Shown: one piece after another, positions 28,039-53,166 of the stretch
Numbering within the stretch: the first letter of the stretch is position 1
Layout of the letters: each line of letters starts with the position of its first letter
Assembly: GCA_002067865.1 (NCBI GenBank)
Contig: MVRC01000006.1
Span: 124,001 to 188,000, forward strand
DNA from: Methanomassiliicoccales archaeon PtaU1.Bin124
Lineage (GTDB): Archaea; Thermoplasmatota; Thermoplasmata; Methanomassiliicoccales; UBA472
Reading direction: 5' to 3'
Length of the DNA stretch: 64,000 bases
Translations under genes and position numbers: made by a program
The notes under the pieces: generated by a model
What the model was told of the DNA's origin: nothing
Databases searched by the model: none
What the model saw: only the letters and a program-made list of their open reading frames with translations

Positions 28039-28111
28039 GCTCCCGTAGTGTAGTGGCCAATCATGTTGGCCTTTCGAGTCAACGACCCGGGTTCAAATCC
28101 CGGCGGGAGCA
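28039..28111 (+). tRNA. tRNA-Glu (anticodon TTC)
   Basis: A 73-base cloverleaf: the acceptor stem GCTCCCG pairs with CGGGAGC, the anticodon stem TTGGC/GTCAA encloses the loop CTTTCGA with anticodon TTC, and the T arm is CCGGG-TTCAAAT-CCCGG. The discriminator base is A and no CCA is encoded. It is immediately followed by an integrase module, so its 3' half is the likely attachment site of a mobile element. Confidence 0.95.
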
Positions 28112-28159
28112 CTTCTTTACCCGTAAAGAATTAAATAGCCAGAAGGCTTTTTCTATCTC

Positions 28160-30060: not shown

Positions 30061-30471
30061 TCACATCAACTTTTCTTGAATTGACTTATTGATCGAGAAA
30101 AGATATTGATATGATTGGGGTGGAGTAAAGTCAGGAACATTTTGATATGGATCTATCGGCGATTCGTATTCTACCAGATCCTCAATTTTTATTGCATATC
30201 CATAATTTGAGTTCTTGTAATAATTGAAGAATTCATCCTCTGTCAGTCCTGAGACGCTTCCTAATCTATCCCACAATTCTTGAGGTGGGGCCTTTATAAT
30301 CCCCCCTACCTTGAAAGAGGCAGTTATTTTCTTAACTGGGGATGTTGTGTAAATATAGACAGTGTTGACTCCTTTAACATCGAATATACATTTTCTGAAC
30401 TCGTAATGTTTCTCATGATTCAAGATCGACTCGACATATTTCGGTTTAATCGAAAGCAATACGCCTGTCAT
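30061..30471 (-). CDS. ASCH/PUA-like domain protein
   Basis: A 136-residue protein whose N-terminus (VLLSIKPKYVESILNHEKHYEFRK) matches the substrate-facing loop of ASCH-domain proteins, and which continues with VNTVYIYTTSPVKKITASFKVGGII, a typical second half. ASCH domains are PUA-related beta barrels that bind nucleotides or RNA, and some cleave RNA. It overlaps the end of the PIN-GNAT gene by 26 bases on the same strand, so the two are translated together and may act together. A role as antitoxin or effector partner is inference. Confidence 0.75.
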   Translation of the reverse strand: MTGVLLSIKPKYVESILNHEKHYEFRKCIFDVKGVNTVYIYTTSPVKKITASFKVGGIIKAPPQELWDRLGSVSGLTEDEFFNYYKNSNYGYAIKIEDLVEYESPIDPYQNVPDFTPPQSYQYLFSINKSIQEKLM

Positions 30472-31951: not shown

Positions 31952-32294
31952 CTTACCAGTCCCCCCTGACCATCGATACTTCCCCTATCATCCAGATATA
32001 TATTTATCCATACTTAATAATATCTTCTTTATGATCGATATGATTTATGGATATACAGACAATAAATAAACTAAAAGGAGAGAGTCAGGCGAAACTACTA
32101 AATTAAATATTCAAGTTGATATTATTATAAATCCTAAATCGAACAGTCTCATCATTGTTGATATCATCTCAATCAAAAATATTCTCTGTTCTCGGCTATC
32201 CTTTGCAGATGTTTGTAATATGGATAAACACCACAGTAGTTTTATCGTTCATATCGTTTTTAGGTTGTGCAATTGGAGAACGGGGGATGTTAAG
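31952..32294. other. AT-rich divergent intergenic region
   Basis: A 343-base region between the PIN-GNAT gene and the DUF499 gene. It is strongly AT-rich and should hold both promoters (ATATATATTTA at about 31995 for the minus gene). A ribosome-site-like AAAGGAGAG at about 32076 has no coding frame after it. No other feature is seen. Confidence 0.5.
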
Positions 32295-35200
32295 TTGAAG
32301 GGCGTTATTGAAGCTTGTAAACCCAGAGATGATATTCTAAAGGGGAAGGCGTCTGATGAGATATACGCAGCACACCTTGGGCGAGTAAGGGATGGAAACG
32401 GGCCTGCTGTCTATAACGATCCCCGGGTTTTCTTCGAGAACACCTTCGCAACTTCAGGTTTAATGACCGTCGTCAAAGAGACGTTCGCAAGGTTATCTGG
32501 AAAGGATGCTGGATCATCCTTCATCAAATTAGAAACCTCACTGGGTGGAGGTAAAACCCACAGTCTCATCGCTTTGTATCACATAGCAAAGAACGGTTCA
32601 AAGACCCCTGGTGCAGAATCGTTGCTCCAAGGGATGGATTTTGCCCCTGTCCGAGTAGCAGCGATCATCGGATCGGAACCTGGTGTGGTAAGAACTGACG
32701 ATGAGCCGCTGACTATCTGGGGGATAATGGCCAAACAATTGTTCGGTTCTCATGGCTATAACAAGATCAGACCATATGATGATCAACTGACATCCCCTGG
32801 TGAGAAAGCCCTTTTTGACCTATTTGGAAAAGATAAATGCCTCATTCTGATCGATGAGATGGCATTGTACCTGGCAAAAGCGGCGACCGTCAAGGTAGGG
32901 GAAAGCACTTTGGCGAAGCAGACCATAGCCTTTTTACAGGAGCTGTCCAGCGTTTCAAGTGCATTGACCAATGTAGTCGTGGTCATCACTAGTCTGAACC
33001 GAGAATCCGTCTTCAGAGACGAAACGGACCAATTATTGAAGGTTCTTGACACAGATGTTAAGAAACAAAAGGCAAGCGAGGCAGTGGAAGAAGCGGACCG
33101 GGTGATGTCTAGACTAGTGAGGAACCTCACTCCAACAACAGGTGAGGAATTCTCTGCTGTCGTTCGACATCGACTTTTCGAGAACATTGATGAAGAGGCA
33201 GCTGAAGAGGTATGCCGTGCTTATATGCAGGTCCTGATGAGCGACTCGAACGCAGACTACCTTCCTGCCAGTGCAAGAGAGCCGAAATATTTACAGAACT
33301 TGCGGTTAGCATACCCATTCCATCCAGAGCTGATCAATACTCTAAGGACAAAGACAAGTTCGATACAGAACTTCAACAAGACAAGAGGGGTCCTAAGACT
33401 ACTGAGCAAGGTCGTGCGGGCCGAATGGAGACAGATGAGCCCCGACCTTCTGATCCATCCATATGTCATCGATATGAGGAACCAGGAATTCGTCGAGGAG
33501 ATCGTTTCCAGGCTGGACAAAGGGGAGTATCAATCCGCTTTGGCAGCTGATATCGCCAACCAAAGGGATCAACCCAGATCGTCCAAGGTAGACGATAATT
33601 TCAATGAACCGTTGGGCACGAGGATTGCCAATGTAGTGTTCTTGAACAGCATGACTGGGGCTGTGGGTTCTGACATCCTTCATGGGATCAAGGAAAATGA
33701 GATCCATCTTTCGATGGCACGCCCAGGGTTCGATCTTAAGTTGTCTGAGAACGCGCTCAAGCTGCTGGAAGACAATTGTTTCTATCTGGTGCGGCAAGGT
33801 CCTACCTTCGCATTCCACACTGAACCAAATCTCAACAAGATCATAGAGAATGCCAAGGATTCTGTCGAGAAGACAAAGGTATTGGGTGAACTGGAGAATA
33901 GGATCAGGGCGCTTTATGGTAGCCGAAAATATTTTGAACCGGTGCTATACGCCAACGAACCTGGCAAAGTTCCGGACAATGTCGACAAACCAAAGCTGGT
34001 GGTCTTACATTATCGTGATTGCGATATCAAGAGCAAAAGCACAGCCATCCCGGAGATTGTCCGGAAGATATACGAGAAGAAGGGTACGATCGATTCCACC
34101 AGGGTCTATCTGAACAATCTGTTATTCCTCGTAGCCGATCATGATGAGATCGAGAAGATGGAACTGAACGGGATCCAGTATCTCGCAATGAACCAATTGG
34201 TTAAGGACCTTGATGAAGGAGCATCCTATCTGGCTGCCCTGTCTCAAACTCAGAGACAGAAATTGAAACAGATGCGCCAGGAAGCCGAGCTCTACATCAA
34301 AATTGCTATTGTTGTGTGCTACAAGCACATAGTCCTACCTTCAGTACAGACAGATTTGGAGCACGCAGGTTCTCGTAAACCGTTGCGTATTCGCACGATG
34401 AGGGTCTCAGACTCTGAGGCGAAGAGTGCCATAGCTAGCCAAAAAGGTCAGGATGAGGCTATCGTTGAATTCCTGATCGAGATCGAAGCTGGTAGGACGG
34501 TTAACAGCAACGAATTATCCCCAGAGTTCATCATCGAGCAGCTTTGGGACAAAAAGAAGGATTCGATACCAGCAGATGAGTTCAAGTTCATGTTCTATCG
34601 CAACCCATCCTGCGGGATAATCTTCTCAGAAGATCTCGTCAAGAAATCATTGAAGTCCGGTTTGCTGAAGGGAAAATGGGTTGTCGTAGCTCAGGGCGAG
34701 CTCTATGATTCCAAGAATTACGTCCAGTTCTACTCTGGTCTGACAAATGATGTGGAGATCATCCTCACTAATACGGAGACAAGCCGCGCAATGTTGGAAC
34801 AGTATTATTGTAAGAGGTGTGGCAAGCGCAAGGCTTCATGCAGTTGCGAAGAGAAGGTATGTGACAAGTGCGGGAAGAAATTGAGCGAATGCGTCTGCGT
34901 CGAAGATCTCTGTACCAGATGTCACCGACCGATCAAGGATTGCATATGTGGCGAGGTCATAAGAACGAAAGAATCGGTCACAATGTCCCGGGCCACGAAG
35001 GACCTGGACGACCTCCTGAGAGATCATAACATCGAGAAGATCTCAACGATAAGGATCAAACCAGATGGGCGCAGGGCCCTGATGAACCTGAACATGGCAT
35101 TGCCACAATTCGGAAAGGTCGAGATGATGTTCGAAATGGAATTCTCAATCAATCAACCTACATTAGGTAACAATCTGAAATTGGAATATCATGGCAATTC

Positions 35201-35408
35201 AAATGGGTATGGCCAGTTGAAACAGCTTTTATCGAATTATGAGGCGAAGAGTGATTTCAGTAGTCATGACCTGACCATTGAGATGAAGTATACTGATGGA
35301 ATCGATGTTAAAGAAATGCTGTCGATACTCGGCGAGAAGGTCCAACCTTTCACTGGAGAAGAACTCTACCTTATCGAGATGGTGCCGAAACAGGAGGAGA
35401 AAGCATGA
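32295..35408 (+). CDS. DUF499-family ATPase of a defence cassette
   Basis: A very large P-loop ATPase (about 1037 residues). The N-terminus from ACKPRDDILKGKASDEIYAAHL to DPRVFFENTFATSG is that of DUF499 proteins; GGGKTHS is Walker A and KCLILIDEMALYL Walker B. A long middle region follows. Near residues 836-890 lie three tandem CxxC zinc knuckles (YCKRCGKRKASCSC, CDKCGKKLSECVC, CTRCHRPIKDCIC). I choose the TTG at 32295 behind GGGGGAT, since family members start there; the ATG at 32220 would add 25 unaligned residues. The gene overlaps the next by 4 bases. DUF499 proteins occur in defence islands with DUF1156 methylases and helicases, as here. Confidence 0.85.
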   Translation: MKGVIEACKPRDDILKGKASDEIYAAHLGRVRDGNGPAVYNDPRVFFENTFATSGLMTVVKETFARLSGKDAGSSFIKLETSLGGGKTHSLIALYHIAKNGSKTPGAESLLQGMDFAPVRVAAIIGSEPGVVRTDDEPLTIWGIMAKQLFGSHGYNKIRPYDDQLTSPGEKALFDLFGKDKCLILIDEMALYLAKAATVKVGESTLAKQTIAFLQELSSVSSALTNVVVVITSLNRESVFRDETDQLLKVLDTDVKKQKASEAVEEADRVMSRLVRNLTPTTGEEFSAVVRHRLFENIDEEAAEEVCRAYMQVLMSDSNADYLPASAREPKYLQNLRLAYPFHPELINTLRTKTSSIQNFNKTRGVLRLLSKVVRAEWRQMSPDLLIHPYVIDMRNQEFVEEIVSRLDKGEYQSALAADIANQRDQPRSSKVDDNFNEPLGTRIANVVFLNSMTGAVGSDILHGIKENEIHLSMARPGFDLKLSENALKLLEDNCFYLVRQGPTFAFHTEPNLNKIIENAKDSVEKTKVLGELENRIRALYGSRKYFEPVLYANEPGKVPDNVDKPKLVVLHYRDCDIKSKSTAIPEIVRKIYEKKGTIDSTRVYLNNLLFLVADHDEIEKMELNGIQYLAMNQLVKDLDEGASYLAALSQTQRQKLKQMRQEAELYIKIAIVVCYKHIVLPSVQTDLEHAGSRKPLRIRTMRVSDSEAKSAIASQKGQDEAIVEFLIEIEAGRTVNSNELSPEFIIEQLWDKKKDSIPADEFKFMFYRNPSCGIIFSEDLVKKSLKSGLLKGKWVVVAQGELYDSKNYVQFYSGLTNDVEIILTNTETSRAMLEQYYCKRCGKRKASCSCEEKVCDKCGKKLSECVCVEDLCTRCHRPIKDCICGEVIRTKESVTMSRATKDLDDLLRDHNIEKISTIRIKPDGRRALMNLNMALPQFGKVEMMFEMEFSINQPTLGNNLKLEYHGNSNGYGQLKQLLSNYEAKSDFSSHDLTIEMKYTDGIDVKEMLSILGEKVQPFTGEELYLIEMVPKQEEKA

Positions 35409-35845
35409 ATCCTCACTCGTTCGAGCTGAAGGTCAAATTGGTCAATGAAGAGCTAACTTTAGAACTCTTTGAGCTTCCACCAGAGGGTGATCGTCGGAAT
35501 GGGGTCAAACCAACCCTGATGAGCAAGTTGGATGCTGACCAGATGGCATTAGTTCAGGTCCTTTTATCAAAGGCACTTCGTAATGGTGGGTACTCCATCT
35601 CAGATGTAAAGAGGACGAGAAAAGCCCCATTCAAGTTGAAAGAAGAGGACGGAATCCGATTGGATCTGGCTTTCCGTGGATCAAAAGGTATCAGCAAACG
35701 GAGCAGGATAGAAGATATTGTCACTGGCATCAGTTCAATGGGCCGAGAGGAAGCATATTATTGGCATGCTAAGGTGACTAGAGGAAGCGATCGTGAGAAT
35801 TGGAATGGGATTAAGGCCATGAGGATCCTGCTAGCTGGGGAATGA
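35405..35845 (+). CDS. Small partner protein of the DUF499-DUF1156 cassette
   Basis: A 146-residue soluble protein between the DUF499 and DUF1156 genes, overlapping both by 4 bases (ATGA). The C-terminal half (RKAPFKLKEEDGIRLDLAFRGSKGISKRSRIEDIVTGISSMGREEAYYWHAKV) is distinctive and recurs in small proteins at this position in related cassettes; I am not sure whether the family is DUF3780 or DUF7680. No catalytic motif is seen. It may bridge the ATPase and the methyltransferase. Confidence 0.7.
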   Translation: MNPHSFELKVKLVNEELTLELFELPPEGDRRNGVKPTLMSKLDADQMALVQVLLSKALRNGGYSISDVKRTRKAPFKLKEEDGIRLDLAFRGSKGISKRSRIEDIVTGISSMGREEAYYWHAKVTRGSDRENWNGIKAMRILLAGE

Positions 35846-38706
35846 TTCAAATGGATATTAAGCGAGACAAACATGGTCGTCCTCGGGTTTTTTTAGAAGA
35901 GGATTGCCCCATCGAAGAGTTGTCAATAGAGTCGCAAAGGGAAAGAGGAGCTGCTAATGCATTACCACCCCTATACTTTCTACATATCTGGTGGGCAAGA
36001 AGGCCTTTGACGATAAGTAGAGCCTCGGTTTTGGGCTCTTTGTTGCCATCAGGTTTCGATGGTAAGGACTTCTTAAAATTGATGGGCATAGAAGGCGATC
36101 CAATTGTTGATCAGGCGAGAATATCTGCAGCAAACAAAACAGGAACGAAGTTGAAGGTTGGTTTTTCCCATAAGCGTGGTTTTAGTAATCAGATTCATAA
36201 AAGTGAAATAATTAAAATGCAAAATATTATCCATGAAGTCTGGGGTAATAGTAAAGTCAATGTATTGGACTCATTCGCCGGTGGCGGGAGTATCCCATTC
36301 GAGTCGGTAAGAATGGGCTTTGATACAATTGCTAATGAATTGAATCCGGTTGCATCGATTATTGAAAGAGCCACGATAGAGTATCCAATATTGTTTGGAA
36401 CTTCATTAGCAAATGAAATTGAAACAATTGGAGAAAAGATAGCATCTGAATTGGAAATTGAGCTTACAAACGTTTTTCCGAAAAATCCAGGTGAAAATAT
36501 TTTTGCGTACATCTGGGTCCGAACCGTTCGTTGTGCCAAATGCTCTCTCTCGGTCCCTCTAACACCTAATTGGTGGCTGAGTACGGTTGAAAAGATAGGT
36601 TATCATCCGATCGTTCCTTCAACGAACCAAGGTGATGTATGTTCTTTTAAAATTATATCGGTCATAAACGATTTTGATCCCGAGAAAGGGACGGTGAAAA
36701 GAGGCGTTGCAACATGTCCCAGATGCGGGAATATTATTGAAGGAGAATTCATCAAGGAAGAAGCGAAGGCTGGGAGATTTGGACATCAACTTGCTGCAAT
36801 AGGATATATGATGCAAGGGCGCAACGGTCGATTCTTCAGGGAGCCGCAGCAATTGGATATGGATGGCATAATTTTAGCTGAGAAGATATTGAATCAAAAA
36901 TTACCCGAATGGGAGAAAAAAGGAATCATCCCAAATGAAGAGATTCCAGATGGTAATAAAACAAGAGAGCCAAGAAATGTAGGTATTGATCATTGGAATC
37001 AGATGTTTAATCATCGCCAGCTCCTTGTTCATCTTATTACCATAGAGAAGATTATTGAGTATCCATGGAATGAGATTGAAAATGATAAAAAGAGAGAAGC
37101 GCTAAGAGTATATGTCCAACTGGCTTTCGACAAATGCATCGATTATTCAGCGATTTTAAATTTATATGATTCGACAAGGGCAAGAATAAAACATGTTTTT
37201 GCTCGACATGATTTTTCGATAACCTGGTCATATGGAGAGATTGATGGAGCCGGTACTCTATTCCGATTTGGTTATTCACAAATTTCTGGTGCATATTCAG
37301 AGATTGTTAAATTGATTGATCGGCCGCAGGGATCTATTCGTTTCATCAACGGTAATGCAGCCAATCTAACTGGGGTAGAAACTGGTTCAATTACTCATAT
37401 TTCCATCGATCCGCCATATTATGATAATGTAATGTATTCTGAATGCTCAGATTTTTTCTATGTCTGGATGAAACGTAGCCTGGCAGGTGTATTCCCCGAA
37501 CTGTTCTCGACCGAATTGACCGATAAGAGTGTTGAGGCGGTAGCTAATTTTTCTCAGTTCAAAACCTGTGGAGCAGGAAAGGCTAGGAGTCTAGCTTCAA
37601 AAGATTATGAGGCAAAAATGCTCTCTTCTTTCAGAGAGATGCACAGGGTGCTTCGAGATGAAGGAGTAATGACTATTATGTTCACTCATAAGAGAGTGGA
37701 GGCATGGGATACACTATCTCAAGCATTATTCGAAGCAGGATTCATGATTACCGCTACTTGGCCTATACATACTGAAAGTGAGCATTCATTGCACCAAGCA
37801 AAAAAGAACGCGGCAACTTCAACAGTTCTCCTTATTTGTCGTAAGAGAGTTGAAGAGAATAAAACATCCTGGTGGGACGAAGTACAACATCAAATCGACG
37901 AGGATGTGAAATTTCATGCTGAGCGTTTCGCCGTAAAAGGATTGAGGGGACAGGATACTTTCATCGCTTGTTTTGGCCCAGCATTACAAGTCCTCTCAGA
38001 ACACTGGCCGGTAAAAAGAAAAGATGGCACTACAGTAAGACCAGACGAAGCTCTTGACCGTGCTCGAATCATTGTGAGCGCATGGTTCATGGACCGAATA
38101 GCTGAAGGAAAAGCAGAGAATCTGGACTCTGTCACGCGTTTCTATATACTCTCATGGTACATCCAGAATGTAAGAGAATATCATTATGACGAGGCTCGGA
38201 AGCTCGGCCTATCATTAAATGTCGAAATCGATGACCTGATGAGACGAAAGATCATGGAAAAGAAGGGCGATTTCGTACGCATCCTCAAGCCTCAGGAGAG
38301 AGCGCGTAGTAAAGGTCTCAACCCCGATGCGAAATCTTACGATAACGTCCTTGACATGGTTCAATCCGCCATGTGCGCTTACGACGCTGGAAAGAGTCTG
38401 GAACTTACTAGGTTCCATCAAAGAACTGGCGCTCTTGCAACTAAGGGATATAAAGAGGCCATCGCTTATCTTCTGGACGTCCTCCCGCGAACAGAAGAGG
38501 TCGTAGAGTACAGATTATTGGACGAGATGTGGGCTGCCAATTATTCCGATCAGATCAAGAGAAAGGCCGTGAAGAAGACCGATCCAACGGGAAAGAAACT
38601 CACGTCATTGGATAATTTTACAGGGGAGAGCAACTCCACAGAATCAATCAATGATACTTCTGAGAGGTCTGAAGAGATCGAGGAGATGGACGAGGAGGAA
38701 CAATGA
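35842..38706 (+). CDS. DUF1156-type adenine-specific DNA methyltransferase
   Basis: A 954-residue methyltransferase. The N-terminus (PIEELSIESQRERGAANALPPLYFLHIWWARRPL) is the DUF1156 domain. The SAM motif appears as VLDSFAGGGSIPFESVRMGFDTIANELNPVA around residues 145-175, and the catalytic motif ISIDPPYYDNVMYSECSDFFYVWMKR near 520. A zinc ribbon (CAKC... CPRCG) lies between them. It probably methylates adenine in host DNA to distinguish it from foreign DNA, while the cassette partners restrict. Start at 35842 (ATGA overlap); the ATG at 35851 is also possible. The C-terminus overlaps the helicase gene. Confidence 0.85.
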   Translation: MIQMDIKRDKHGRPRVFLEEDCPIEELSIESQRERGAANALPPLYFLHIWWARRPLTISRASVLGSLLPSGFDGKDFLKLMGIEGDPIVDQARISAANKTGTKLKVGFSHKRGFSNQIHKSEIIKMQNIIHEVWGNSKVNVLDSFAGGGSIPFESVRMGFDTIANELNPVASIIERATIEYPILFGTSLANEIETIGEKIASELEIELTNVFPKNPGENIFAYIWVRTVRCAKCSLSVPLTPNWWLSTVEKIGYHPIVPSTNQGDVCSFKIISVINDFDPEKGTVKRGVATCPRCGNIIEGEFIKEEAKAGRFGHQLAAIGYMMQGRNGRFFREPQQLDMDGIILAEKILNQKLPEWEKKGIIPNEEIPDGNKTREPRNVGIDHWNQMFNHRQLLVHLITIEKIIEYPWNEIENDKKREALRVYVQLAFDKCIDYSAILNLYDSTRARIKHVFARHDFSITWSYGEIDGAGTLFRFGYSQISGAYSEIVKLIDRPQGSIRFINGNAANLTGVETGSITHISIDPPYYDNVMYSECSDFFYVWMKRSLAGVFPELFSTELTDKSVEAVANFSQFKTCGAGKARSLASKDYEAKMLSSFREMHRVLRDEGVMTIMFTHKRVEAWDTLSQALFEAGFMITATWPIHTESEHSLHQAKKNAATSTVLLICRKRVEENKTSWWDEVQHQIDEDVKFHAERFAVKGLRGQDTFIACFGPALQVLSEHWPVKRKDGTTVRPDEALDRARIIVSAWFMDRIAEGKAENLDSVTRFYILSWYIQNVREYHYDEARKLGLSLNVEIDDLMRRKIMEKKGDFVRILKPQERARSKGLNPDAKSYDNVLDMVQSAMCAYDAGKSLELTRFHQRTGALATKGYKEAIAYLLDVLPRTEEVVEYRLLDEMWAANYSDQIKRKAVKKTDPTGKKLTSLDNFTGESNSTESINDTSERSEEIEEMDEEEQ

Positions 38707-41700
38707 GCCTCAAGGATGTCCCGTTAAAAGCCCATTACATATCTGGTGTCGATGATCTGGTACACAAGTTCTACATTCCAATGTTAGAACAAAGCAATCT
38801 CTACCAACGTCGCACGGGATACTTCAACAGCCGAGCATTGGCGATGGCGGGACGAGGCTTGTCTGGTCTGATCCGAAACCATGGGAAGATGCAATTGATC
38901 TGCTCGGTGGAGCTGGAAGAGGATGAAAGAGAGATCTATGAGGACCCTTCCAAACACGTCCGATTGCTTGAACAGAAAGCAGATCAAGTGAGCAAGATGC
39001 TGGAGCAGCCATCTGATGAACTAGAAGAGCATCGTCTGATGTTGCTCGCAGAGGTCCTTTCTCGCGGTCTATTAGAGATCAAGATCGCTTTCCCAAAAGC
39101 AGGCATCTACCACGAGAAGGTCGGGATCTTCTACGACGATAAAGGTAACAAATGTGCCTTCAGTGGGAGTGACAACGAGACCCCGGGCGGATGGTTGCAC
39201 AACACAGAGTCATTCCATGTCTTCACGTCTTGGCAAGATGCCCGACATATCGAGCCAGAGATCGACACGTTCAATAAGTTATGGAACAATCGGTTGAGCG
39301 GTACAACGGTCATCCCACTTCCAGAGGCGGTAAAGAAAAATATCATCCGGTACAAGAAAAAAGATTTCGATGAAGGTTATTGGGAACCAGAGGACCCACG
39401 ATCAAAGTACGTTAGACCTGTGGATAATCCTGATTGGGTCTGGACCCCTGAGCTTGTATATATCTTCGAATCACCACGTCTCTGGAACCATCAGGACTTC
39501 GCATTTGGTGAGGTCGGCATCACGCCATTCCAGCACCAGGATTATGTTGCTGCCAACGTTCTGAAGAATTGGCCACCCAGATGCATGTTGTGCGACGAGG
39601 TCGGTCTTGGTAAGACGATCGAGGCCGGTCTGATCCTTAGAGGATTCATGTCCGCTGGTAGATTGGACAGGACGCTCATACTAGCCCCAAAGAACATCCT
39701 AAAACAATGGCAGCTGCAATTGTTCACAAAATTCAATATCACGGCATGGAGGCTCGAAGGCAACTATTTAGAAGGCCCTACTCTGGACCCAAACCTGTCT
39801 CCAGAACGTGTCAAGGCCGATCCGGATAATCCTTTCAAGTCGCGACCGATAATGCTGGCATCAAGTCAATTAATCAGAAGCGAGGCAAGATTGGACCAAG
39901 TATCGGCGGTCCCTTGGGACATGATATTGCTCGATGAGGCCCATCACGCAAGGGCTAGAGGTCCTTCAGGCAAGCGTGACCCCAATCTTCTTCTCAGGGC
40001 GATGGATAATCTCAAACTCCAGACCCAAGGGCTTGTCTTCATGACAGCCACCCCTATCCAGATTGACAGAAAAGAACTCTGGGACCTCCTCATGGTCTTA
40101 GAACTACCAGGTGGTTGGCAGGATGAGGATTCCTTTGATGCATTTTTCATTGAGCTAAATGAAAAACGACCAGACTGGGGTCTCATGTTCGGTCTGGCAC
40201 AGGACACGATAAAAGCATTCGGTATCGACGAATCTTCCATCCAAATGGTCCAGGAAGAATATCGTGATGTGGATGTCGAACACCTAATGCAGTTGATCAA
40301 GACCGGTAAGCACCAGGTCGCTCAAGGACTGAGCCCGAGGGAGCAAGAAGCTATGAAAATATTGCTCTACAGGTGCACACCAGTCTATAGAATGATATTC
40401 CGCAATACCAGAGAACTGCTGAAACGCTATTATCAAGAAGGGAAGATCAAAGATAGGATCGCTGATCGAGAGCCCCAGGTCCCGGATAGTATCGTGCTTC
40501 TAGGAAATGAGAACGACCCTCATTCGGAGCTTGGACTATATCTCAAGATCGACGAATACGTCAGGGAGTATTACGCGAAATACAACGCGGTCAGAAAAGG
40601 TATGGGTTTTGTGATGGAGGTCTACAGGAAAAGGCTCACCTCCAGCTTCCATTCTATCAAGCTCAGCCTTGAACGAAGGAAGGCGAGACTTGCTGAGGCC
40701 CTCCGCACCGGCGATTACGGGATGTTGCTAGGACTAGCACAACAGGAGATCGAGGACTCTGAAGAAGAGGAACTTGATGAGATTGAGGAATCCATCGATC
40801 CGTCCAAGCTCCGTTCAGACCAGATGAGAGCGGTCATCCAAGCTGAACATGATTTTCTTGAGGTCTTCATTAACCAACTGAAAAACCTGCCTCACGACTC
40901 GAAAACAGACTATTTGGATCGAATTTTACGAAATAAGTTCGAACAGGGATTAAGAAGGGTCATCATCTTCAGCCAGTTCAAGGATACAGTAGATCACCTG
41001 CTAGAGTATCTATTGCCCCAATATGGTGAAAAGCTAGGATCATATTCTGGCGTGGGAGGTTCATTCTGGAATGGCAGGGAATGGGTCACCTGCTCGAAGC
41101 AGAAGATCCAACAGAAATTTACCGATGATGCCGATCCGTTGGCCATTTTGATATGTACTGATGCGGCGGCAGAGGGTCTGGACCTTCAATCATGCAATAC
41201 TCTCATCAATTATGATATTCCTTGGAATCCAATGCGTATCGAGCAAAGGATCGGTCGTATCGATCGTATCGGACAAAAATCCCCCAAGGTTTTCATTCAC
41301 ACTTTCTTTTATCAAGGAACAGTAGAAGAAACTGTTTATGGACGATGCTTGGAGCGCATCGGTTATTTCCGCACCACTTTAGGGAATCTGCAGCCCATAC
41401 TAATTGAGACGGAACGTCTCATTAGAAATGGCGCCATGGCAAGGACAAGGGAAGAACAGCAGACGATGCTGGCGAACATCGATGAAAGGTTAGAGCAAAG
41501 CATTGCCGAGGTTGATGAGAGCATCCGAATATTCCACTTTTTGAATCACTATGTTCCACAGTTAAAATTAGCAATAAAAACGGTCCCGGTCTCTCAGGAA
41601 CAGCTCGAGAGCAATCTAGCACCCAGATTAGTCAATGCTGGATGGATCAAAGATGGTGATTATTGGGCGATAGAAAAAGATGTCATCACATTCAAACCAA

Positions 41701-42362
41701 AAGTGATGGACCAAAAATCCAGAAGTGCTCGATTGATCACGCCCAACTCGAATTTGGTAGGATTGTTCGGAAGTTTACCAGACATTTCAGAAGTGACATC
41801 CGACGCGAATGGACGAAAATTGTATAGGATTGAGATCGAAGGAATGACGGTTTTTGTCTTAGAAAATAAGAACATCTATCGGCCGGTAATCACGATGAAT
41901 GATCTTTCCCAGAGTGGTGGGCAGAAATTTTCGACATTAGAAGATTGCATCGCTCATATGCGTGCGGAGATCATTGGGCGTCGCACAGAGAGCATCAGAG
42001 ATCAATTGCATATGTGGCAGAATCGTATGGATGGATGGGAATCAAGAACGCGCATGTATCTTGTTCAATTATTGAATTGGCGCTGGAGAGACGTCTCAAT
42101 AAAAGGAACTGCTCCAACAGATGAAACGATTAACGACATTTGGACAGAATATCTCAAAGATGTTGATAGAAATTCAACTAAAAAACTTGCTGACTACGTT
42201 AAATATCGACCGGTTTCATCTGACATTCGGCGTGGTGTCAGAGGTAGGGTCCCGACCAATAGTCCTAGATCAAGTAAAATGGAGACTGCCTTGGCAAATG
42301 AACTTGAAATTATTCAATCTAACTTGTTTATGTTGAAAGAAAAAATGTCCAGCACATATTAG
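38703..42362 (+). CDS. SNF2/RapA-like helicase with N-terminal PLD-like nuclease domain
   Basis: A 1219-residue protein. Residues about 1-210 form a phospholipase-D-like domain (YQRRTGYFNSRALAMAGRG, and HEKVGIFYDDKGNKCAFSGSDNET with an HxK-type motif). The superfamily 2 helicase core follows: MLCDEVGLGKTIEAGL (Walker A), ILLDEAHHAR (DEAH), FMTATPIQ and ICTDAAAEGLDLQ to RIEQRIGRIDRIGQ (motifs V and VI). Such PLD-helicases are DNA translocases or restriction effectors in defence islands. It is the last gene of the four-gene cassette and overlaps the methyltransferase gene by 4 bases. Confidence 0.87.
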   Translation: MSLKDVPLKAHYISGVDDLVHKFYIPMLEQSNLYQRRTGYFNSRALAMAGRGLSGLIRNHGKMQLICSVELEEDEREIYEDPSKHVRLLEQKADQVSKMLEQPSDELEEHRLMLLAEVLSRGLLEIKIAFPKAGIYHEKVGIFYDDKGNKCAFSGSDNETPGGWLHNTESFHVFTSWQDARHIEPEIDTFNKLWNNRLSGTTVIPLPEAVKKNIIRYKKKDFDEGYWEPEDPRSKYVRPVDNPDWVWTPELVYIFESPRLWNHQDFAFGEVGITPFQHQDYVAANVLKNWPPRCMLCDEVGLGKTIEAGLILRGFMSAGRLDRTLILAPKNILKQWQLQLFTKFNITAWRLEGNYLEGPTLDPNLSPERVKADPDNPFKSRPIMLASSQLIRSEARLDQVSAVPWDMILLDEAHHARARGPSGKRDPNLLLRAMDNLKLQTQGLVFMTATPIQIDRKELWDLLMVLELPGGWQDEDSFDAFFIELNEKRPDWGLMFGLAQDTIKAFGIDESSIQMVQEEYRDVDVEHLMQLIKTGKHQVAQGLSPREQEAMKILLYRCTPVYRMIFRNTRELLKRYYQEGKIKDRIADREPQVPDSIVLLGNENDPHSELGLYLKIDEYVREYYAKYNAVRKGMGFVMEVYRKRLTSSFHSIKLSLERRKARLAEALRTGDYGMLLGLAQQEIEDSEEEELDEIEESIDPSKLRSDQMRAVIQAEHDFLEVFINQLKNLPHDSKTDYLDRILRNKFEQGLRRVIIFSQFKDTVDHLLEYLLPQYGEKLGSYSGVGGSFWNGREWVTCSKQKIQQKFTDDADPLAILICTDAAAEGLDLQSCNTLINYDIPWNPMRIEQRIGRIDRIGQKSPKVFIHTFFYQGTVEETVYGRCLERIGYFRTTLGNLQPILIETERLIRNGAMARTREEQQTMLANIDERLEQSIAEVDESIRIFHFLNHYVPQLKLAIKTVPVSQEQLESNLAPRLVNAGWIKDGDYWAIEKDVITFKPKVMDQKSRSARLITPNSNLVGLFGSLPDISEVTSDANGRKLYRIEIEGMTVFVLENKNIYRPVITMNDLSQSGGQKFSTLEDCIAHMRAEIIGRRTESIRDQLHMWQNRMDGWESRTRMYLVQLLNWRWRDVSIKGTAPTDETINDIWTEYLKDVDRNSTKKLADYVKYRPVSSDIRRGVRGRVPTNSPRSSKMETALANELEIIQSNLFMLKEKMSSTY

Positions 42363-42506: not shown

Positions 42507-43637
42507 CTATAACCAAGGGTCCAATGTGGCCCTCCTTGGTATTTTTCCTGTCGCCTCTTTCTTCAGCTTCGACAGGACTTCATCACGTTCCTGTAGGTAC
42601 ATCTCTTCGACTTGATGATCAACCCATTTCTTCTCGATTGCCAGGCTCACGCTTGTCCTATTGCTCCCACTGGCTATTAACCTGAACGCATGTTCCTCGC
42701 TTCGGTATTCAAGAACCTTAATAGTCATTGCATCCTCGATGATTCGATTTGCTAACTCATCGATGTAAGCAGGTGACATATAGAAGAGATCTGATTTCAA
42801 GTAGTCCCGCAACCTCTCCTTGGTAACCATTAATCCTTTCTCTCCTACGGTTGCGACCCTCACCAATGCTAGCATCTCTAGGACTCTGTGGGTCTTTGGG
42901 AAAGTGTTGATAGCTGATGAATTACTATCCACCGGGTTAGCCAATGATTTCACCAACTCTTTGTCCTTATGTAGTAGCGAAGCTCTTTTCACAACAATAT
43001 CTTGACCATCAATGCTGCGGATTTGAATATCCCTTCGAGGCGGTTCGCATAATGACAGGGTGGCACCCGGGATCATCTCTACTGACCAAACAGTAATCCC
43101 TCCACCCGTCTCAATGATGCGGTTGAGTACTTGGTGGGCATCGGCCGGGGGTGCAGCGATGACCGGTTCGAACACGATCGAGGAATAATCCTTTTCCATC
43201 AGATACTCCCTTGCTATAAGGTCCCGATGTGCCTCTGCCACTGCCATTCGGTCGCGCATCTGGTTCACAACCTCCATCGCTGACGCGGTTGAGCTCTTAC
43301 ATTCCCCGAAGATGGCGCATCGATAACGATTATTATCCTTGTAAAGTAAGAAATCGGTGTTCGGTAACCCATATTCAGCAAGTGGAGAAGCTCGGACAAA
43401 TCGATATCCCGTTCCCACCAGGCTACCTGTTTCAGTAAATGGAAAAACGCAGCTGTTGAGGATTGCCCGATGCTTACGTTCTGTTTCTATACCCTTCTTG
43501 AAAGGCTCGGCGATTGCTTCCCTTTCATTCTGATACTTAGTCTTCAGTTGCCTATTAATGGCATTCCTGCCATCAACATAAGACTTCCTCACTTCCTTCG
43601 GAAGCTTGGCTATGAAATCTTTCTCCGCTGGCTCCAT
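42507..43637 (-). CDS. Unrecognised protein with a PD-(D/E)XK-like signature
   Basis: A 376-residue protein that I cannot place in a family. Residues about 85-125 read LAEYGLPNTDFLLYKDNNRYRCAIFGECKSSTA: an Asp in a strand followed by a strand ending in ECK, the pattern of the PD-(D/E)XK nuclease core. The C-terminal third (LKSDLFYMSPAYIDELANRIIEDAMTIKVLEYR) looks like a winged helix. It is convergent with the PLD-helicase gene, 144 bases apart, and follows the next gene upstream by 10 bases, so the two form a unit. A nuclease role in defence is inferred. Confidence 0.6.
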   Translation of the reverse strand: MEPAEKDFIAKLPKEVRKSYVDGRNAINRQLKTKYQNEREAIAEPFKKGIETERKHRAILNSCVFPFTETGSLVGTGYRFVRASPLAEYGLPNTDFLLYKDNNRYRCAIFGECKSSTASAMEVVNQMRDRMAVAEAHRDLIAREYLMEKDYSSIVFEPVIAAPPADAHQVLNRIIETGGGITVWSVEMIPGATLSLCEPPRRDIQIRSIDGQDIVVKRASLLHKDKELVKSLANPVDSNSSAINTFPKTHRVLEMLALVRVATVGEKGLMVTKERLRDYLKSDLFYMSPAYIDELANRIIEDAMTIKVLEYRSEEHAFRLIASGSNRTSVSLAIEKKWVDHQVEEMYLQERDEVLSKLKKEATGKIPRRATLDPWL

Positions 43638-43647
43638 CCTTACCTCT

Positions 43648-44742
43648 TCAACAATGGGCTAGCTCAGCGAGTTCTGCGTTGTCATCAACAAGCTCGACGA
43701 CACCCTGATAGAATCCAATGAACGATTCAAAAGTCGTCTCGTACTTAGGTACAATGACAATCCGGTGGTGGGAGATGGTGATATCGAATACCGAGCCTTT
43801 CAACTCGTCTATCACTGTTGTTGTGATGCTCTCCAATCCCTTGGCCTTTGAGTCGTCTTTTCTCTCCTGCCTACCTATGTAGGTGTCTATGAACGAGAAC
43901 CTCTTGATCTCCTTTTTGATTTTTTCGAGAGCGTGTTCATCGAAGGACTTCTGAGCGTTCAATGTGATGCAACCAGCGTTGATGTACGCAACTTTAATGT
44001 TCAGATGTTCATCAATTCTATATTCAAACCTTTTTGAGGTTGCCTGCATGGACAGAATCTCACCCTTTATGCGGTCAAGGTGCTTGAGGAAAAGGTCAAT
44101 TATCCTTGGCGTAGCTCTTTGGGCGGCGAACAAACCATCATCGGTTATGTGGAGTTTCAAGTCATGACCGGCCCTCAGGTAAATCCTGTTTGGTATTACT
44201 CCATACAGCTCGCCCATCTCGTCAAGGGCGAAAGTGGCGTCGTTGCCTCTATACTCGATGCGTCGTGAATATTCTGGCCGAATTCTACATGGTCCATCGC
44301 GCTCGCCTTTTCTCCGTCCAGAGAAGAGATAAACATAACCATTGGTGTCCTCCATCAGTCCTTTCCAAAAGGCATCAAAGAGTAACGGTTTTATCCACAT
44401 CCGGGCAGCACCTTTGCGCCGATCAATTCTAGTACCAAGCTCTTTCTGGTAGCTATCGTCACTGGCATAGGTATACATTAACAAAAGACCTGGTGAATAT
44501 TCTTCAAGGAAGTACTGCTCAGATCCCTCCCCGTCATCTGACAGCGGGGAGACGCGATATATCTCACCAAGCTGGGTTATTTCCTTTGGGCTGAAGAGTC
44601 GTTCCTTCCAATCTTCGGCGACTAGAAGGCAGTATATTTTCAACCACCTTCTCTTACCATAACTGGAGAAAAGTTCCACTGGGTTCTCTTTTAAATATCC
44701 CCTGAACTCCTCCCGTGTGAACTCCCGATCCTTAATCTGCAT
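43648..44742 (-). CDS. Unrecognised protein, partner of the PD-(D/E)XK-like gene
   Basis: A 364-residue soluble protein of unknown family. I see no transmembrane segment and no obvious catalytic motif. The N-terminal part (KDREFTREEFRGYLKENPVELFSSYGKRRWLKIYCLL) is helical; the C-terminal 100 residues alternate strands (FDITISHHRIVIVPKYETTFESFIGFYQGVVELV). The start at 44742 has GGGAGG 5 bases before it; the frame is open to 44796. It forms a two-gene unit with the nuclease-like gene downstream. A 9-bp inverted repeat lies 22 bases before the start. Confidence 0.6.
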   Translation of the reverse strand: MQIKDREFTREEFRGYLKENPVELFSSYGKRRWLKIYCLLVAEDWKERLFSPKEITQLGEIYRVSPLSDDGEGSEQYFLEEYSPGLLLMYTYASDDSYQKELGTRIDRRKGAARMWIKPLLFDAFWKGLMEDTNGYVYLFSGRRKGERDGPCRIRPEYSRRIEYRGNDATFALDEMGELYGVIPNRIYLRAGHDLKLHITDDGLFAAQRATPRIIDLFLKHLDRIKGEILSMQATSKRFEYRIDEHLNIKVAYINAGCITLNAQKSFDEHALEKIKKEIKRFSFIDTYIGRQERKDDSKAKGLESITTTVIDELKGSVFDITISHHRIVIVPKYETTFESFIGFYQGVVELVDDNAELAELAHC

Positions 44743-45048
44743 GAATACCTCCCACCAGCTCTCTGCGCTCCTCCAAGCGTAAGGAGCGCATGACATTGTA
44801 GATTTAATCCTTTTATGGGTCTTTTATTCATTACCCCTATTCAAATAATTAACCTAGGGGTGCTCGACAATTGGGTCTCACTAATAAGAAGTGAAACTAT
44901 TGATGTCATTCGTGACAGAAAAACTACTTGCACCAATTGGGCTTGCTGAGTGGAATAACAATTCCACAGTCCATCTTCAATAAAACAAACGAAAACGAAC
45001 CAACCCGCATTTATTAATATAAATGATTTGAATTGAATATTCGGAGGT
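44743..45048. other. 306-base intergenic region
   Basis: Lies between the start of the gene ending at 43648 and the stop of the OLD-type nuclease gene, both minus strand. Apart from the two inverted repeats described at 44764-44790 and 44833-44861, I see no coding frame or RNA gene in it. Confidence 0.5.
44764..44790. promoter_or_regulatory. 9-bp inverted repeat before the two-gene unit
   Basis: TGCGCTCCT (44764-44772) and AGGAGCGCA (44782-44790) are perfect inverted arms with a 9-base loop, 22 bases upstream of the start codon at 44742. Depending on the transcription start it is either an operator or a leader hairpin. A TATA-like TTAAATC near 44811 on the minus strand fits a start close to this repeat. 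A second inverted repeat (ACCCCTA / TAGGGGT) lies at 44833-44861. Confidence 0.45.
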
Positions 45049-46881
45049 TTAGGAGGTTATCGAATTCATCAATTCGATATATCGCCTTAAGCTCACTTTT
45101 AACATAAGTTCCTCTGCCGGTAACAATTCAGCCAGAGCTTTACCAAATTCTGGTTTTCCAAATGGAATGCGACTGTTATAGTGTACCAAATCATACAGTT
45201 TTTTTGAAAATTTACCTTCTCCACGAAGTTCTTCAATTTTCTGAGGCAACCAAATGCTGTCATCAAACTTAGGCCACCTAGCATTTAGACACCTACAAAT
45301 CTCATCATTTGTAAATTCATCTTCAAATTCTTTGGTTCCAACTAATACTACGTTGTGATCCATGAATTCAGATGGAAATCCAATCTCGTTCAATCTCTCA
45401 ACGGTGATTTTTTTAGGGCCCTCATCCTGAATATCTCTGTCGAGAAATAATATTGTAGCATCACTTTTATTTTTATTTAACAATTTTAAGAATTCTTTCC
45501 AGCAGGAGTTTGATTTTAAATTAATTAAAACAACCCCGGATTCAGCCATATGTCTTTGAGTGATCTTATGATGCATTAAGGGAAGTGCATTCCATTCGGT
45601 GTCCCCCTCAACAATTAAAAAACATCTCTCGAAGAAAATGCTGCTATTTTTTATGCCGGTTATTCCAGCTAAATCATCTAAAAATGATTTAATATCGGTC
45701 TCATCACAACCTTTTAAAAAGTCAATCGAGGAACACCCATCGGTTTGCATTATCCGATTGATTGAGCTTGCTGGTGCCCTGTCGACCATGGATACTGAAT
45801 GAGTACAAATTATTACTTGAACATTATTGTTTGGATCTGATGATTTATTTAAGGCATAGAACATTTTTTTCTGGGCTTCGTAATGCAAATTTGCATCTGG
45901 TTCGTCATAACCACGAATGACAGATTTCTTACTAGTTTTTGACCTAAGTTCACAGTCCCATTCTAGGAGGGCCAGTAGCATTCTCTTTTTTGAACCTTCA
46001 CCAATATTATTAATTGATCTTACCCCATCCCCGAAATCGACTAATAAATCCTTTAAGCTAAATCCACTGGCGAAATCAACGCTAAAATCTCCAGTGATTG
46101 AGACGATTTTATCAACTTTGTCATTTATTTTCTTTTTCAATTCATTCTCTATATGGTCATTTAAATCTGTTTTTATTTGGTTTTCTTTGTCTTTTAGATC
46201 CCCCTTTGGAACCAAATTCCCATTGCCATCGTCATCATAGAAGTGACTTCGATATATTCCTTTAAGTGTATTATCAACATAGGCGAGAGGATTTCCATAA
46301 TTCGAGCTATCATAATTTTCATATATAGGGAGAAATGGCATTAAATCCCCCCATTTTACCTGAACCCATTTGCTAATCTTAGGTATTAAAGAATCATTCT
46401 CTTCAAGATACTTTGTCAATCTAAGTTTAGAGTCATCTTTGGTTGTATAAAGGACGTTAAATTGCTTGCATAATTCTTCTATTTGACCCGCCTTTAGTCC
46501 ATTAAGGTTGCAGAGATTTTCATCCGCATATACGCTCGAAAAAACATATGGTTTTACGTCTATTGCATCGTTTATGAGAGAATAATCCTGTTTTACTTTT
46601 AGTGTGCCATCCACAATGAATTGTTTAGGTAATATTTTGAAATCTGTATCATCTAAATTAAAACACAATTCTATGCTGGCCATTTTCTCAATGCTACCAT
46701 TGATCTGATGGAAGCAATCTGGACTGAAACCTTTATACATAAAGAATATTTTCAATGCTTTTAGAATGGAAGATTTCCCCGAATCATTCTCGCCGATGAA
46801 AATGGTCATTCTATGAATTGGGATTATTCCGCTGTCTTTAAAACACTTGAAATTAACTAATTTAATTGATGCAAGATCCAA
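45049..46881 (-). CDS. OLD-family ATPase with TOPRIM nuclease domain
   Basis: A 610-residue overcoming-lysogenization-defect type protein. The N-terminus is an ABC/SMC-like ATPase (SIKLVNFKCFKDSGIIPIHR, Walker A GENDSGKS at residues 30-37); IINNIGEGSKKR-like signature and RGYDEPDANLHYEAQKKMF is the Walker B/D-loop region. The C-terminal TOPRIM domain starts at FLIVEGDTEWNALPL and has a later acidic LFLDRDIQDEG. OLD nucleases cut DNA and act in phage defence, for example with Gabija- or Paris-like partners. No GajB-type helicase lies next to it; the KTSC gene is divergent. The gene is markedly AT-rich, suggesting recent transfer. Confidence 0.85.
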   Translation of the reverse strand: MDLASIKLVNFKCFKDSGIIPIHRMTIFIGENDSGKSSILKALKIFFMYKGFSPDCFHQINGSIEKMASIELCFNLDDTDFKILPKQFIVDGTLKVKQDYSLINDAIDVKPYVFSSVYADENLCNLNGLKAGQIEELCKQFNVLYTTKDDSKLRLTKYLEENDSLIPKISKWVQVKWGDLMPFLPIYENYDSSNYGNPLAYVDNTLKGIYRSHFYDDDGNGNLVPKGDLKDKENQIKTDLNDHIENELKKKINDKVDKIVSITGDFSVDFASGFSLKDLLVDFGDGVRSINNIGEGSKKRMLLALLEWDCELRSKTSKKSVIRGYDEPDANLHYEAQKKMFYALNKSSDPNNNVQVIICTHSVSMVDRAPASSINRIMQTDGCSSIDFLKGCDETDIKSFLDDLAGITGIKNSSIFFERCFLIVEGDTEWNALPLMHHKITQRHMAESGVVLINLKSNSCWKEFLKLLNKNKSDATILFLDRDIQDEGPKKITVERLNEIGFPSEFMDHNVVLVGTKEFEDEFTNDEICRCLNARWPKFDDSIWLPQKIEELRGEGKFSKKLYDLVHYNSRIPFGKPEFGKALAELLPAEELMLKVSLRRYIELMNSITS

Positions 46882-49908: not shown

Positions 49909-52900
49909 TCATATCGGTACCACGTCCCCAGTCTCTGTCAGATAGATGTACGAGGTCACTTTCCCATCGACCATCTTTCCAACTGCTTTCGCATAGATGT
50001 CCATCTGTTCCTTGAAGACCGATATCTGTTCCGCGATATGGGGTTCCAACGGGTCGATGGTCTTGTAATCTATCAGCGCCCATCCCCCCTCCCTTAGCTG
50101 GACTAACCTATCAATGATCCCTAAGTAAACGACATCTCCTTCCCTTAGCTCGAAGGGCAGCTCTTTAAGGTCCTTGCCATTATCAGCGATGTTCATCATC
50201 AACTCTGATGTCATGAACCTCTTGTGCATCCCCTCCAACCCATGGACAACTTTCCTCGTTTCCTCTTCATTGATTTCCAAACGGGAAGATTTCAGCAGCT
50301 GCAAAGGGGACTTTCCACGCATTACTTCATGGACCAAAGTTCCATAGTCCGCAGCCGTCATCCCATTTTTTTGTAGGATGGATTTCGTCTCCGACATCAC
50401 ACCCCCTTTGAACTTCACACCCTCCTTGTCACCCGCCGATGGCCTGATGACCTCCACCTTCCCTTGAATTCTTGATTTCTCATGATGTTCCCACGAGCTC
50501 AATCGAGGGGGCACTGAGTATGGTGCATGGGAAGTAAATATTCCAAGATGGGGATTGTTCTCATTGACCCTCAGATGGACGATGCAATCTCCAGACTCAC
50601 AAATTCCCTTCCTTCCTTCTGCCAGATCCTCATCGTTGATAGCAAGGCCGTTCATCGTCAAGGCGAACCAATCCCTACCATCTGATTTGATCTCATCCCA
50701 TGTACCGTTCTTCCTACCTCTGCTACCCAGGATGACAAGATGATCCATTGCACGCGTGGCTGCCACATAGAACAGTCTCAGGTTCTGGGCCTTGGACTTC
50801 TGCGAGAGCACATCCTTGGCACGACGGAAGGGATATGGTTTGTAAGTCCCTGAGAGATCGGGGATAGGAACCTCCGTCCATATTCCGTCATCGTCTATCG
50901 CAGCCACGTCCTTCTCTCCCTGGGGAGGTGTCTCCGTCTCAGGAATGATGACGATGGGGAACTCAAGGCCTTTGGATGCATGAACGGTCATTATCCTGAC
51001 AGCGTTCCCTGTGGCCTCCAGCTTGGCCTGCCCTTCCTTATCTGATTCATCTACGTTAAGTTGCAGCCATTTGACCAGGTCGCGAAGGCCAAAGAAACCT
51101 TCCTGCTCCCTTTGCCTGACCATGTCCACCAGCATCTCCACGTTGGCCATGGCCTGTCTGCCTGTCGGTATGCCGGCGTATATACCAAATATCCCGGTCC
51201 GGTCGATCAACTGGTTCATCAGCTCGCTCACTGGGACCCTACCGGTCTTCCGAGACAGTTCGTCCAGCACCTCTGCGGCAAACCTTAGTTTAACATTTCC
51301 TTTCTCCGAGCGTTTGCGAAGCTTTCCATACAGATGACCGTAAGGCGCTGACGTGACGATACCATACAGATCCTCATCAGATAGCCCGAAGTATGGCGAT
51401 CGCAACAGGCCATAAAGGGGAATATCATCCATATGGTTGGCCAAGAAGCACATGGCGTTCCCGATGTCCATCACCTCTTGGCTCTGGAAGAAACCAACCC
51501 CCTTTTCGACTACGTAAGGTATGTCTTTCTCTGACAATGCACTCTCATAATACCGAAGATTTGTCCTTCCTCTCAGAAGCACAATTATGTCCCCATACGA
51601 GGGTCTCCTGACCTCCGGAGACGCATCATTCTTCGTGGGATAGATCATCCGGTCATCGGAGCTGACAAGATACTCTATCTCGGCTACTGTGGCCTGGGCC
51701 ATGTTCAGCTTGGCATCCCCCTCACCCTTGGGGACGGTGACCACGGTCACTGAACCTTGTTCTCTTTTACGGTGCGGGTCCACATGGGAGTAGCGGAACT
51801 CCCATTCCTTCTCCTCAGAGGTCATAATGCTGGAGAAGAGAGAGTTCACGAACGTCACTATGGTGTTCGAGGAACGGTAATTGCTCCCTAGCTCCTCCTT
51901 TTCTCCTCCCAGGTCCTTTTCCACGAATCGTAGCATCTCCTTGAAGATGGTGACGTCCGCTCCGCGGAACAAATAGATGGATTGCTTGCCGTCGCCGACC
52001 ACGAACAACTTGTCCTCTTCATCGCCGAGCAATGCGCGCACGATGCGGTCCTGGGGAAGGTCGGTGTCCTGATACTCATCGACCAACACCTTCGAGAACC
52101 GTTCCTGAAGTAATTTTAGCACCTTATTTTCTGGAATGGATGGGTCAAGGAGGTCCTGCACGATTATCAGCATATCATTGAAATCGATCGCTTGTCGTTC
52201 TCTCTTCATGGCATCCATGATCGTCGAGAATCGTTCGTATAGCACCTTTACTCCCAACAGGTGCTCAGTTGCCATTATTATCGAATCAGGATTAAGCTCA
52301 TGCTCCAGGACCTCTAGGTCCCCTTTCATCTCCTCCGCCAGATCCGCGAGGATGGCGTAGCTATCCTTCAGCTTTTGTTTATCATCTTTCATCCTTTTCT
52401 TGTCGCCCATGTTGCGATTGCCTTTCAGTCTTAGAAGGCATATTAGAGAGAGCAATCTCGACTCATCATCACCGCTCAGGGCATCTTTCACGAGCTGTGT
52501 TGCCTGAAAAAGATAGCATTCTGATCTATCGCCATCCTCCTTGGCGTAAACATTACACAGACCGGACAGAGTCTGTAAGGCCTGGGTCACTTCTGAACAA
52601 AAAAGTAAATCGCGAACCTCTTTCACGTAAGCGGTGAGCAGCTCCTTGTAATACCTTTTAAACTTCTCAGCATCGGACATCATCTCGATTGCCGGCAGCG
52701 CTTTCACCCTTCTCTCATATAGGAAGAATAGGAGTTCCTTGAGTCTCCAAGACGTTGCGACGGATGCCACTTTCACCATTATCTCTCGAGATTCATCTTG
52801 GGACCCCAGCTCATTCCACGTCTCCTCCATGAGCAGGGTCAGGTCCATACCTTCAAGCACCTTCACATCCGCAGGCATCCCGGCCTGGAGATGGAACTCC

Positions 52901-53166
52901 CTCAGCACCTGGCTGCAGAACGAATGGAACGTCTGCACCTGGGCCCAATTGAGCTGGTCGAACAGCTCCTCGTCCTTCAGGTCCAATGCCTTTTCCCGGA
53001 TCTTCTCCCTCATGTTGGCTGCGGCCTCATCGTTGAAGGTCAGCGCGAGGATGGAAGACACTTCGATTTTCTTCTCGACATGCTCATAGTACTGCCCAAC
53101 GAGACGCGTCGTCTTCCCTGAACCTGCCGATGCCCCTACACATATGGAGCATTCTTTCTTCGACAT
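49909..53166 (-). CDS. addA: AddA-like UvrD-family helicase with C-terminal RecB-type nuclease
   Basis: A 1085-residue superfamily 1A helicase-nuclease. Motif I GASAGSGKTTRL is at residues 12-23; the others are QAIDFNDML, KVLVDEYQDTDLPQ, VVGDGKQSIYLFRGAD, IMTVHASKGLEFPIVIIPE and LFYVAATRAMDHLVI. The C-terminal PD-(D/E)XK nuclease has GIIDRLVQ, ALIDYKT and a later Gln. It overlaps the AddB-like gene by one base (TGATG). AddAB processes double-strand ends for recombination and destroys linear foreign DNA; it is uncommon in archaea, which normally use HerA-NurA. Confidence 0.85.
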   Translation of the reverse strand: MSKKECSICVGASAGSGKTTRLVGQYYEHVEKKIEVSSILALTFNDEAAANMREKIREKALDLKDEELFDQLNWAQVQTFHSFCSQVLREFHLQAGMPADVKVLEGMDLTLLMEETWNELGSQDESREIMVKVASVATSWRLKELLFFLYERRVKALPAIEMMSDAEKFKRYYKELLTAYVKEVRDLLFCSEVTQALQTLSGLCNVYAKEDGDRSECYLFQATQLVKDALSGDDESRLLSLICLLRLKGNRNMGDKKRMKDDKQKLKDSYAILADLAEEMKGDLEVLEHELNPDSIIMATEHLLGVKVLYERFSTIMDAMKRERQAIDFNDMLIIVQDLLDPSIPENKVLKLLQERFSKVLVDEYQDTDLPQDRIVRALLGDEEDKLFVVGDGKQSIYLFRGADVTIFKEMLRFVEKDLGGEKEELGSNYRSSNTIVTFVNSLFSSIMTSEEKEWEFRYSHVDPHRKREQGSVTVVTVPKGEGDAKLNMAQATVAEIEYLVSSDDRMIYPTKNDASPEVRRPSYGDIIVLLRGRTNLRYYESALSEKDIPYVVEKGVGFFQSQEVMDIGNAMCFLANHMDDIPLYGLLRSPYFGLSDEDLYGIVTSAPYGHLYGKLRKRSEKGNVKLRFAAEVLDELSRKTGRVPVSELMNQLIDRTGIFGIYAGIPTGRQAMANVEMLVDMVRQREQEGFFGLRDLVKWLQLNVDESDKEGQAKLEATGNAVRIMTVHASKGLEFPIVIIPETETPPQGEKDVAAIDDDGIWTEVPIPDLSGTYKPYPFRRAKDVLSQKSKAQNLRLFYVAATRAMDHLVILGSRGRKNGTWDEIKSDGRDWFALTMNGLAINDEDLAEGRKGICESGDCIVHLRVNENNPHLGIFTSHAPYSVPPRLSSWEHHEKSRIQGKVEVIRPSAGDKEGVKFKGGVMSETKSILQKNGMTAADYGTLVHEVMRGKSPLQLLKSSRLEINEEETRKVVHGLEGMHKRFMTSELMMNIADNGKDLKELPFELREGDVVYLGIIDRLVQLREGGWALIDYKTIDPLEPHIAEQISVFKEQMDIYAKAVGKMVDGKVTSYIYLTETGDVVPI

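Follow-up and report, generated by a model that had tools for sequence, protein, structure and literature searches.

A mobile two-gene module of archaea with a predicted PD-(D/E)XK nuclease and an apparent exchange of its output for membrane proteins: a candidate anti-virus system

Results

Genes A and B in the window

The window, that is, the whole stretch of 64,000 nucleotides that was analysed, contains two genes, designated here A and B, which are separated by 10 bp and are convergent to the PLD-helicase gene of an Hma operon that ends at 42362 (Table 1). The open reading frames 42507-43637 and 43648-44796 confirm this arrangement as it was described in the initial annotation. The longer frame of A is open to 44796 and would encode 382 residues; the start was set at 44742 because the homologues begin there and the sequence GGGAGG precedes this codon.

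Table 1. Features of the A-B locus and of its surroundings (window positions)
Feature	Position	Strand	Remarks
Gene A	43648-44742	minus	364 aa; obligate partner of B by sequence; possible TBP-fold domain(s)
Gene B	42507-43637	minus	376 aa; predicted PD-(D/E)XK nuclease with C-terminal winged helix
Catalytic signature of B	43296-43355	minus	D95 ... E112-C-K114, intact; from family alignment
Predicted winged-helix region of B	42678-42902	minus	residues about 246-320; from predicted secondary structure
Perfect 9-bp inverted repeat, 9-nt loop	44764-44790	.	precedes the A start codon; no conservation among relatives
Hma (DUF499/Type-2 BR-like) operon	32220-42362	plus	convergent; recurrent neighbour of the pair
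HmaC	32220-35408	plus	Hma operon
DUF7680 gene	35405-35845	plus	Hma operon, between HmaC and HmaB
HmaB	35842-38706	plus	Hma operon
HmaA	38703-42362	plus	Hma operon
tRNA-Glu, then phage-type integrase	28039-29732		left edge of the island
PADLOC candidate PDC-M11A	30446-31951	minus	candidate for defence; lies at the edge of the island
OLD/Gabija-like gene	45049-46881	minus	AAA_15 and TOPRIM; same strand as A
AddAB-like pair	49909-56321		UvrD helicase and PD-(D/E)XK; second PD-(D/E)XK protein

Upstream of A there is a perfect inverted repeat (arms at 44764-44772 and 44782-44790, 21 bp before the start codon), whose RNA hairpin is modestly better than that of shuffled sequence (z -2.1; 7/200 shuffles). 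It had been proposed as the leader of the unit; the repeat is present, but an equivalent one was found in only 1 of 61 upstream regions of relatives versus 4% of random regions, which rules out a conserved operator, and it was left out of the unit because the relatives do not carry it.

As anticipated from the sequence, neither protein belongs to a recognised family. Profile searches of A and B against Pfam, NCBIfam, PADLOC and PDB revealed no homology, and the PADLOC-DB 2.0 models (a version that dates from 2023) gave 0 families for both window proteins and none that was credible among their relatives. The one match obtained for A was phrog_24372 (function unassigned; E=4e-16).

The genomic island around the pair

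The GC content of the island that carries A and B is about 10 points below that of its left flank. The pair lies between tRNA-Glu and the integrase on one side and AddAB-like, NERD and methylase genes on the other, and the defence genes around the window copy include OLD, AddAB-like, PDC-M11A and NERD. A search of the window for a further copy of the tRNA-Glu end, of at least 14 nt, gave none, and no att duplicate that would mark the far end of the island was detected. The PDC-M11A candidate (E 5e-137) shows weak Pfam matches to PIN in its N-terminal part and to EVE in its C-terminal part. The OLD/Gabija-like gene, placed about 300 bp upstream of A, is unusually AT-rich (35% GC) relative to its neighbours. 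An AddAB-like pair is similarly found beside A-B at five other loci (L005, L015, L072, L073 and L074); as a constant third component these genes are ruled out, given that they accompany A-B only in the window and in one haloarchaeal group. Within the Hma operon, the DUF7680 gene overlaps the ends of HmaC and HmaB, and the gene order is repeated, with a DUF7680-like gene, in loci L002 and L017, which suggests that DUF7680 is a constant fourth gene of this archaeal Hma type.

Recurrence and mobility of the pair

The initial annotation had asked for a survey of the pair in other islands, and this survey revealed that it recurs widely, in association with defence loci and mobile elements; the two findings that would have spoken against the proposal, homology to a housekeeping family and absence of the pair elsewhere, were not made. 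Across 79 loci, the two genes are neighbours on the same strand in almost every case, A being followed by B with a gap that is mostly between -4 and +5 bp, typically a 4-bp overlap or a spacing of a few bp; the remainder are due to gene calling or contig ends. This pairing is far beyond chance. Using profile searches, A was detected in 56 of 392 haloarchaeal genomes (14%) and in 6 of 390 from the phylum to which the window belongs, and B in 44 of the 392 haloarchaeal genomes, always at an A locus save for one fragment of 114 aa. The sequence identities of A and B are correlated (rho 0.66, 0/200 permutations). Judged from these sequences, A and B are an obligate, tightly spaced unit; the suggestion of an obligate partner is backed by family conservation.

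The two genes were also found side by side in four haloarchaeal plasmids by tblastn, and more divergent queries added two further plasmids. A tblastn search with A gave a match in the pleolipovirus Harhisp1, in which the next gene is B, and Harhisp1 has been recovered as an induced circular provirus (PMC7911831); carriage of the pair by a virus is firm. Scans of viral contigs with A yielded no confirmed relative. A single haloarchaeal genome harbours, in four nearly identical copies, a 12-kb integrase element with a further gene, T (see below), followed by A and B (L063-L066); two copies are chromosomal, two are on small contigs, and at least two are beside tRNA-Pro. A two-gene transposon is ruled out, since the repeated unit is an element of 12-14 kb, in one genome with integrase and tRNA. 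In Halapricum desulfuricans gene B (L005:13887-15002) contains an in-frame TAG and is annotated as two open reading frames; it is likely a pseudogene.

Gene B of the window type probably encodes a PD-(D/E)XK nuclease

The aligned B proteins retain a PLxE motif, D95 and E112-x-K114, which is the PD-(D/E)XK pattern; the window protein and every one of the 27 groups with an intact nuclease (see below) have D95, E112 and K114. The Asp...ECK signature that had been noticed in one of the two genes corresponds to D95 ... E112-C-K114 of B. The predicted secondary structure consists of a helix, three strands, a helix and a strand, and ends in a winged helix (H246-261, E263-272, H273-282, H289-305, E309-320); the winged-helix-like end, also proposed previously, agrees with this prediction and with weak Foldseek matches to WHB/MarR-type folds. 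The AlphaFold model of B is of low confidence (pLDDT 58), and its other Foldseek matches (XisH, PaqCI and the Cap4 nuclease) are equally weak, all with E values of 0.015 or above. B of the window type is likely a PD-(D/E)XK nuclease by its motifs; on this low-confidence model, the predicted order of elements fits the superfamily core.

Gene A may encode a TBP-fold protein

Six residues that are invariant in the A family (T91, R160, D168, G181, G203 and P332) are all kept in the window protein, and no relative outside this family is known by sequence. The AlphaFold model of A is poor (pLDDT 54). When it was used as a Foldseek query, TBP-fold proteins (RnlA, viral TBP and TFIID) were retrieved from both structure libraries, with weak matches (E values of 3e-5 at best in BFVD and always above 0.001 in PDB); for RnlA the probability reached 0.99 with E of about 0.01-0.2 on this low-confidence model. 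Support for a TBP-like domain was looked for in the sequence and none was found, and an internal duplication was not significant by self profile alignment. We hypothesise that A may have a TBP fold with a role in binding nucleic acid or protein; nucleic-acid binding is established or assumed for the TBP-like domains that occur in fusion with RNase LS-type toxins and with RNase HIII (PMC3710099). A HEPN toxin or RNase is ruled out because A has no conserved histidine: among 63 A proteins, no alignment column has His in more than half of the sequences, and the R-x4-6-H motif is missing.

Loss of the catalytic triad and the presence of membrane partners

The A proteins were grouped at 97% identity into 63 groups, 60 of which have a usable B. 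The DEK triad of B is intact in 27 of these 60 groups and degenerate in 33. The earlier proposal of a nuclease effector stands for window-type B, which keeps its signature, and fails for the half of the family in which the site is lost. Two putative membrane proteins accompany the degenerate forms. T is a protein of about 180 aa with an N-terminal TM helix, encoded on the same strand 33-134 bp upstream of A; PRP has pentapeptide repeats and two C-terminal hydrophobic segments (TM helices) and is encoded divergently, usually 80-260 bp upstream. T or PRP was found in 29 of the 33 degenerate groups (20 T, 9 PRP) and in 0 of the 27 intact ones; the degenerate groups that carry neither are L115-L117, where ECER replaces ECK, and L095, which stops at a contig edge. 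Among the 392 genomes, all 23 strong matches to T (>150 bits) are directly beside A, and the next score is 86 bits.

A naive Fisher test of triad versus partner gave p 4e-13. Only three changes of the nuclease and two of the partner can be placed on the tree, and a phylogenetic sign test, which has no power at two or three independent changes, gave p 0.5. The sequences thus present a strong pattern that derives from few independent events. The window protein is on a long branch and groups with the nuclease-intact haloarchaeal class (97*). Taken together, there is an apparent switch of output, from nuclease to membrane protein, on one two-protein core. A search of open-licence papers gave no description of A-B, of T or of this exchange; a recent name elsewhere is possible.

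Discussion

We consider it somewhat probable that A-B is a mobile two-gene archaeal module against viruses, with A controlling or directing the nuclease B. The defence role and the function of A are inferred, and the anti-virus role comes from guilt by association, i.e. from location in defence islands and in a virus. In the mechanism that we propose, A, possibly through a TBP fold, would bind B and sense a nucleic-acid or protein cue related to infection; B, held on DNA by its winged helix, would then cut DNA. In two derived lineages B may have become a non-catalytic adaptor for a membrane protein, T or the pentapeptide-repeat protein with C-terminal TM helices, which would receive the signal and take on the task of killing or blocking. 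Such an adaptor is plausible because inactive restriction-endonuclease folds have been proposed as sensors in other immune systems (PMC12839542). More tentatively, the A-B core with an exchangeable output (active B, or dead B together with T or a pentapeptide-TM protein) could possibly represent a new type of archaeal immune system; the copies borne by viruses would presumably be aimed at competitors.

Other explanations were considered. The pair could be a toxin-antitoxin or addiction module, B being a DNA-cutting toxin and A its antitoxin, that stabilises plasmids, proviruses and islands; the tight two-gene operon with the partner first would fit, as would its presence on plasmids and proviruses and, in Harhisp1, its position beside a CopG/RelE pair. 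However, both proteins, of about 370 aa, are large for a type II pair, and in half of the family the B site is lost, yet A and B are both retained; this retention is unexpected if A only neutralises B, and we regard an addiction module as unlikely. It is also rather unlikely that the pair serves the mobile elements in their own DNA metabolism or gene regulation (replication, recombination, transcription control), its location among defence genes being incidental. The predicted winged helix of B, the possible TBP fold of A and the position next to rep genes in pleolipovirus-like proviruses point in that direction; nonetheless, the pair also occurs in islands that lie well away from rep genes, as well as in very different element types, and such a function hardly accounts for a loss of the nuclease site that is coupled with a gene for a membrane protein.

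Given its neighbours, A-B might instead supply the Hma (DUF499/BR) system with an auxiliary nuclease and work only jointly with it. Standalone PD-(D/E)XK nucleases and auxiliaries have been reported near DUF499 systems (PMC12839542), which would agree with this, and DUF1156/HmaB lies within 10 kb of 6 of the 27 intact groups versus 0 of the 33 degenerate ones. For the haloarchaeal intact groups (n=23), 5 have HmaB versus about 0.3% expected per locus, with a DUF1156 background of about 0.5 genes per genome; Hma is near nuclease-intact pairs in H. ezzemoulense, Natrinema mahii, Halapricum and two further haloarchaeal groups. In contrast, no HmaB is nearby in 21 of the 27 intact groups, most viral and plasmid copies are without Hma, and the arrangement differs, convergent in the window and co-oriented upstream in L002. 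We regard such an obligate auxiliary as very improbable; the co-location shows membership in defence islands and does not by itself mean that A-B works with Hma.

Experimental tests exist for few anti-virus systems of archaea, and the predicted ones have mostly come to light through bacterial relatives. The A-B module is archaeal as far as tested and is present in about one in seven haloarchaeal genomes, and an inducible virus of Haloarcula hispanica, a laboratory organism, carries it. Because it is widespread in haloarchaea, virus-borne and apparently able to switch its output, the exchange of effectors is directly testable in these tractable organisms.

The module can be compared with several known systems. 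Hma and the BREX-related Type-2 BR systems are its frequent neighbours, convergent in the window, but A-B is not a core gene set of theirs, and most A-B copies stand without Hma. With the RnlA/LsoA (RNase LS) toxin-antitoxin systems it has in common the two-gene operon and the weak match of A to the TBP-like domains of RnlA; in contrast, the HEPN catalytic site is missing in A, and the partner of A is a nuclease-fold protein, not RnlB. The general logic of a nuclease restrained by a partner is that of Hachiman (HamAB) (PMC12278908), whereas neither a helicase nor an ATPase domain is recognised in A, and no homology to this system was found. Finally, window-type B and the PD-(D/E)XK superfamily have in common the D ... 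ExK signature and the predicted alpha-beta-beta-beta-alpha-beta order; searches by sequence linked B to no Pfam or PDB member of this superfamily, and the B family differs from it by its conserved PLxE motif, its C-terminal winged helix, and the catalytic degeneration of about half of its members.
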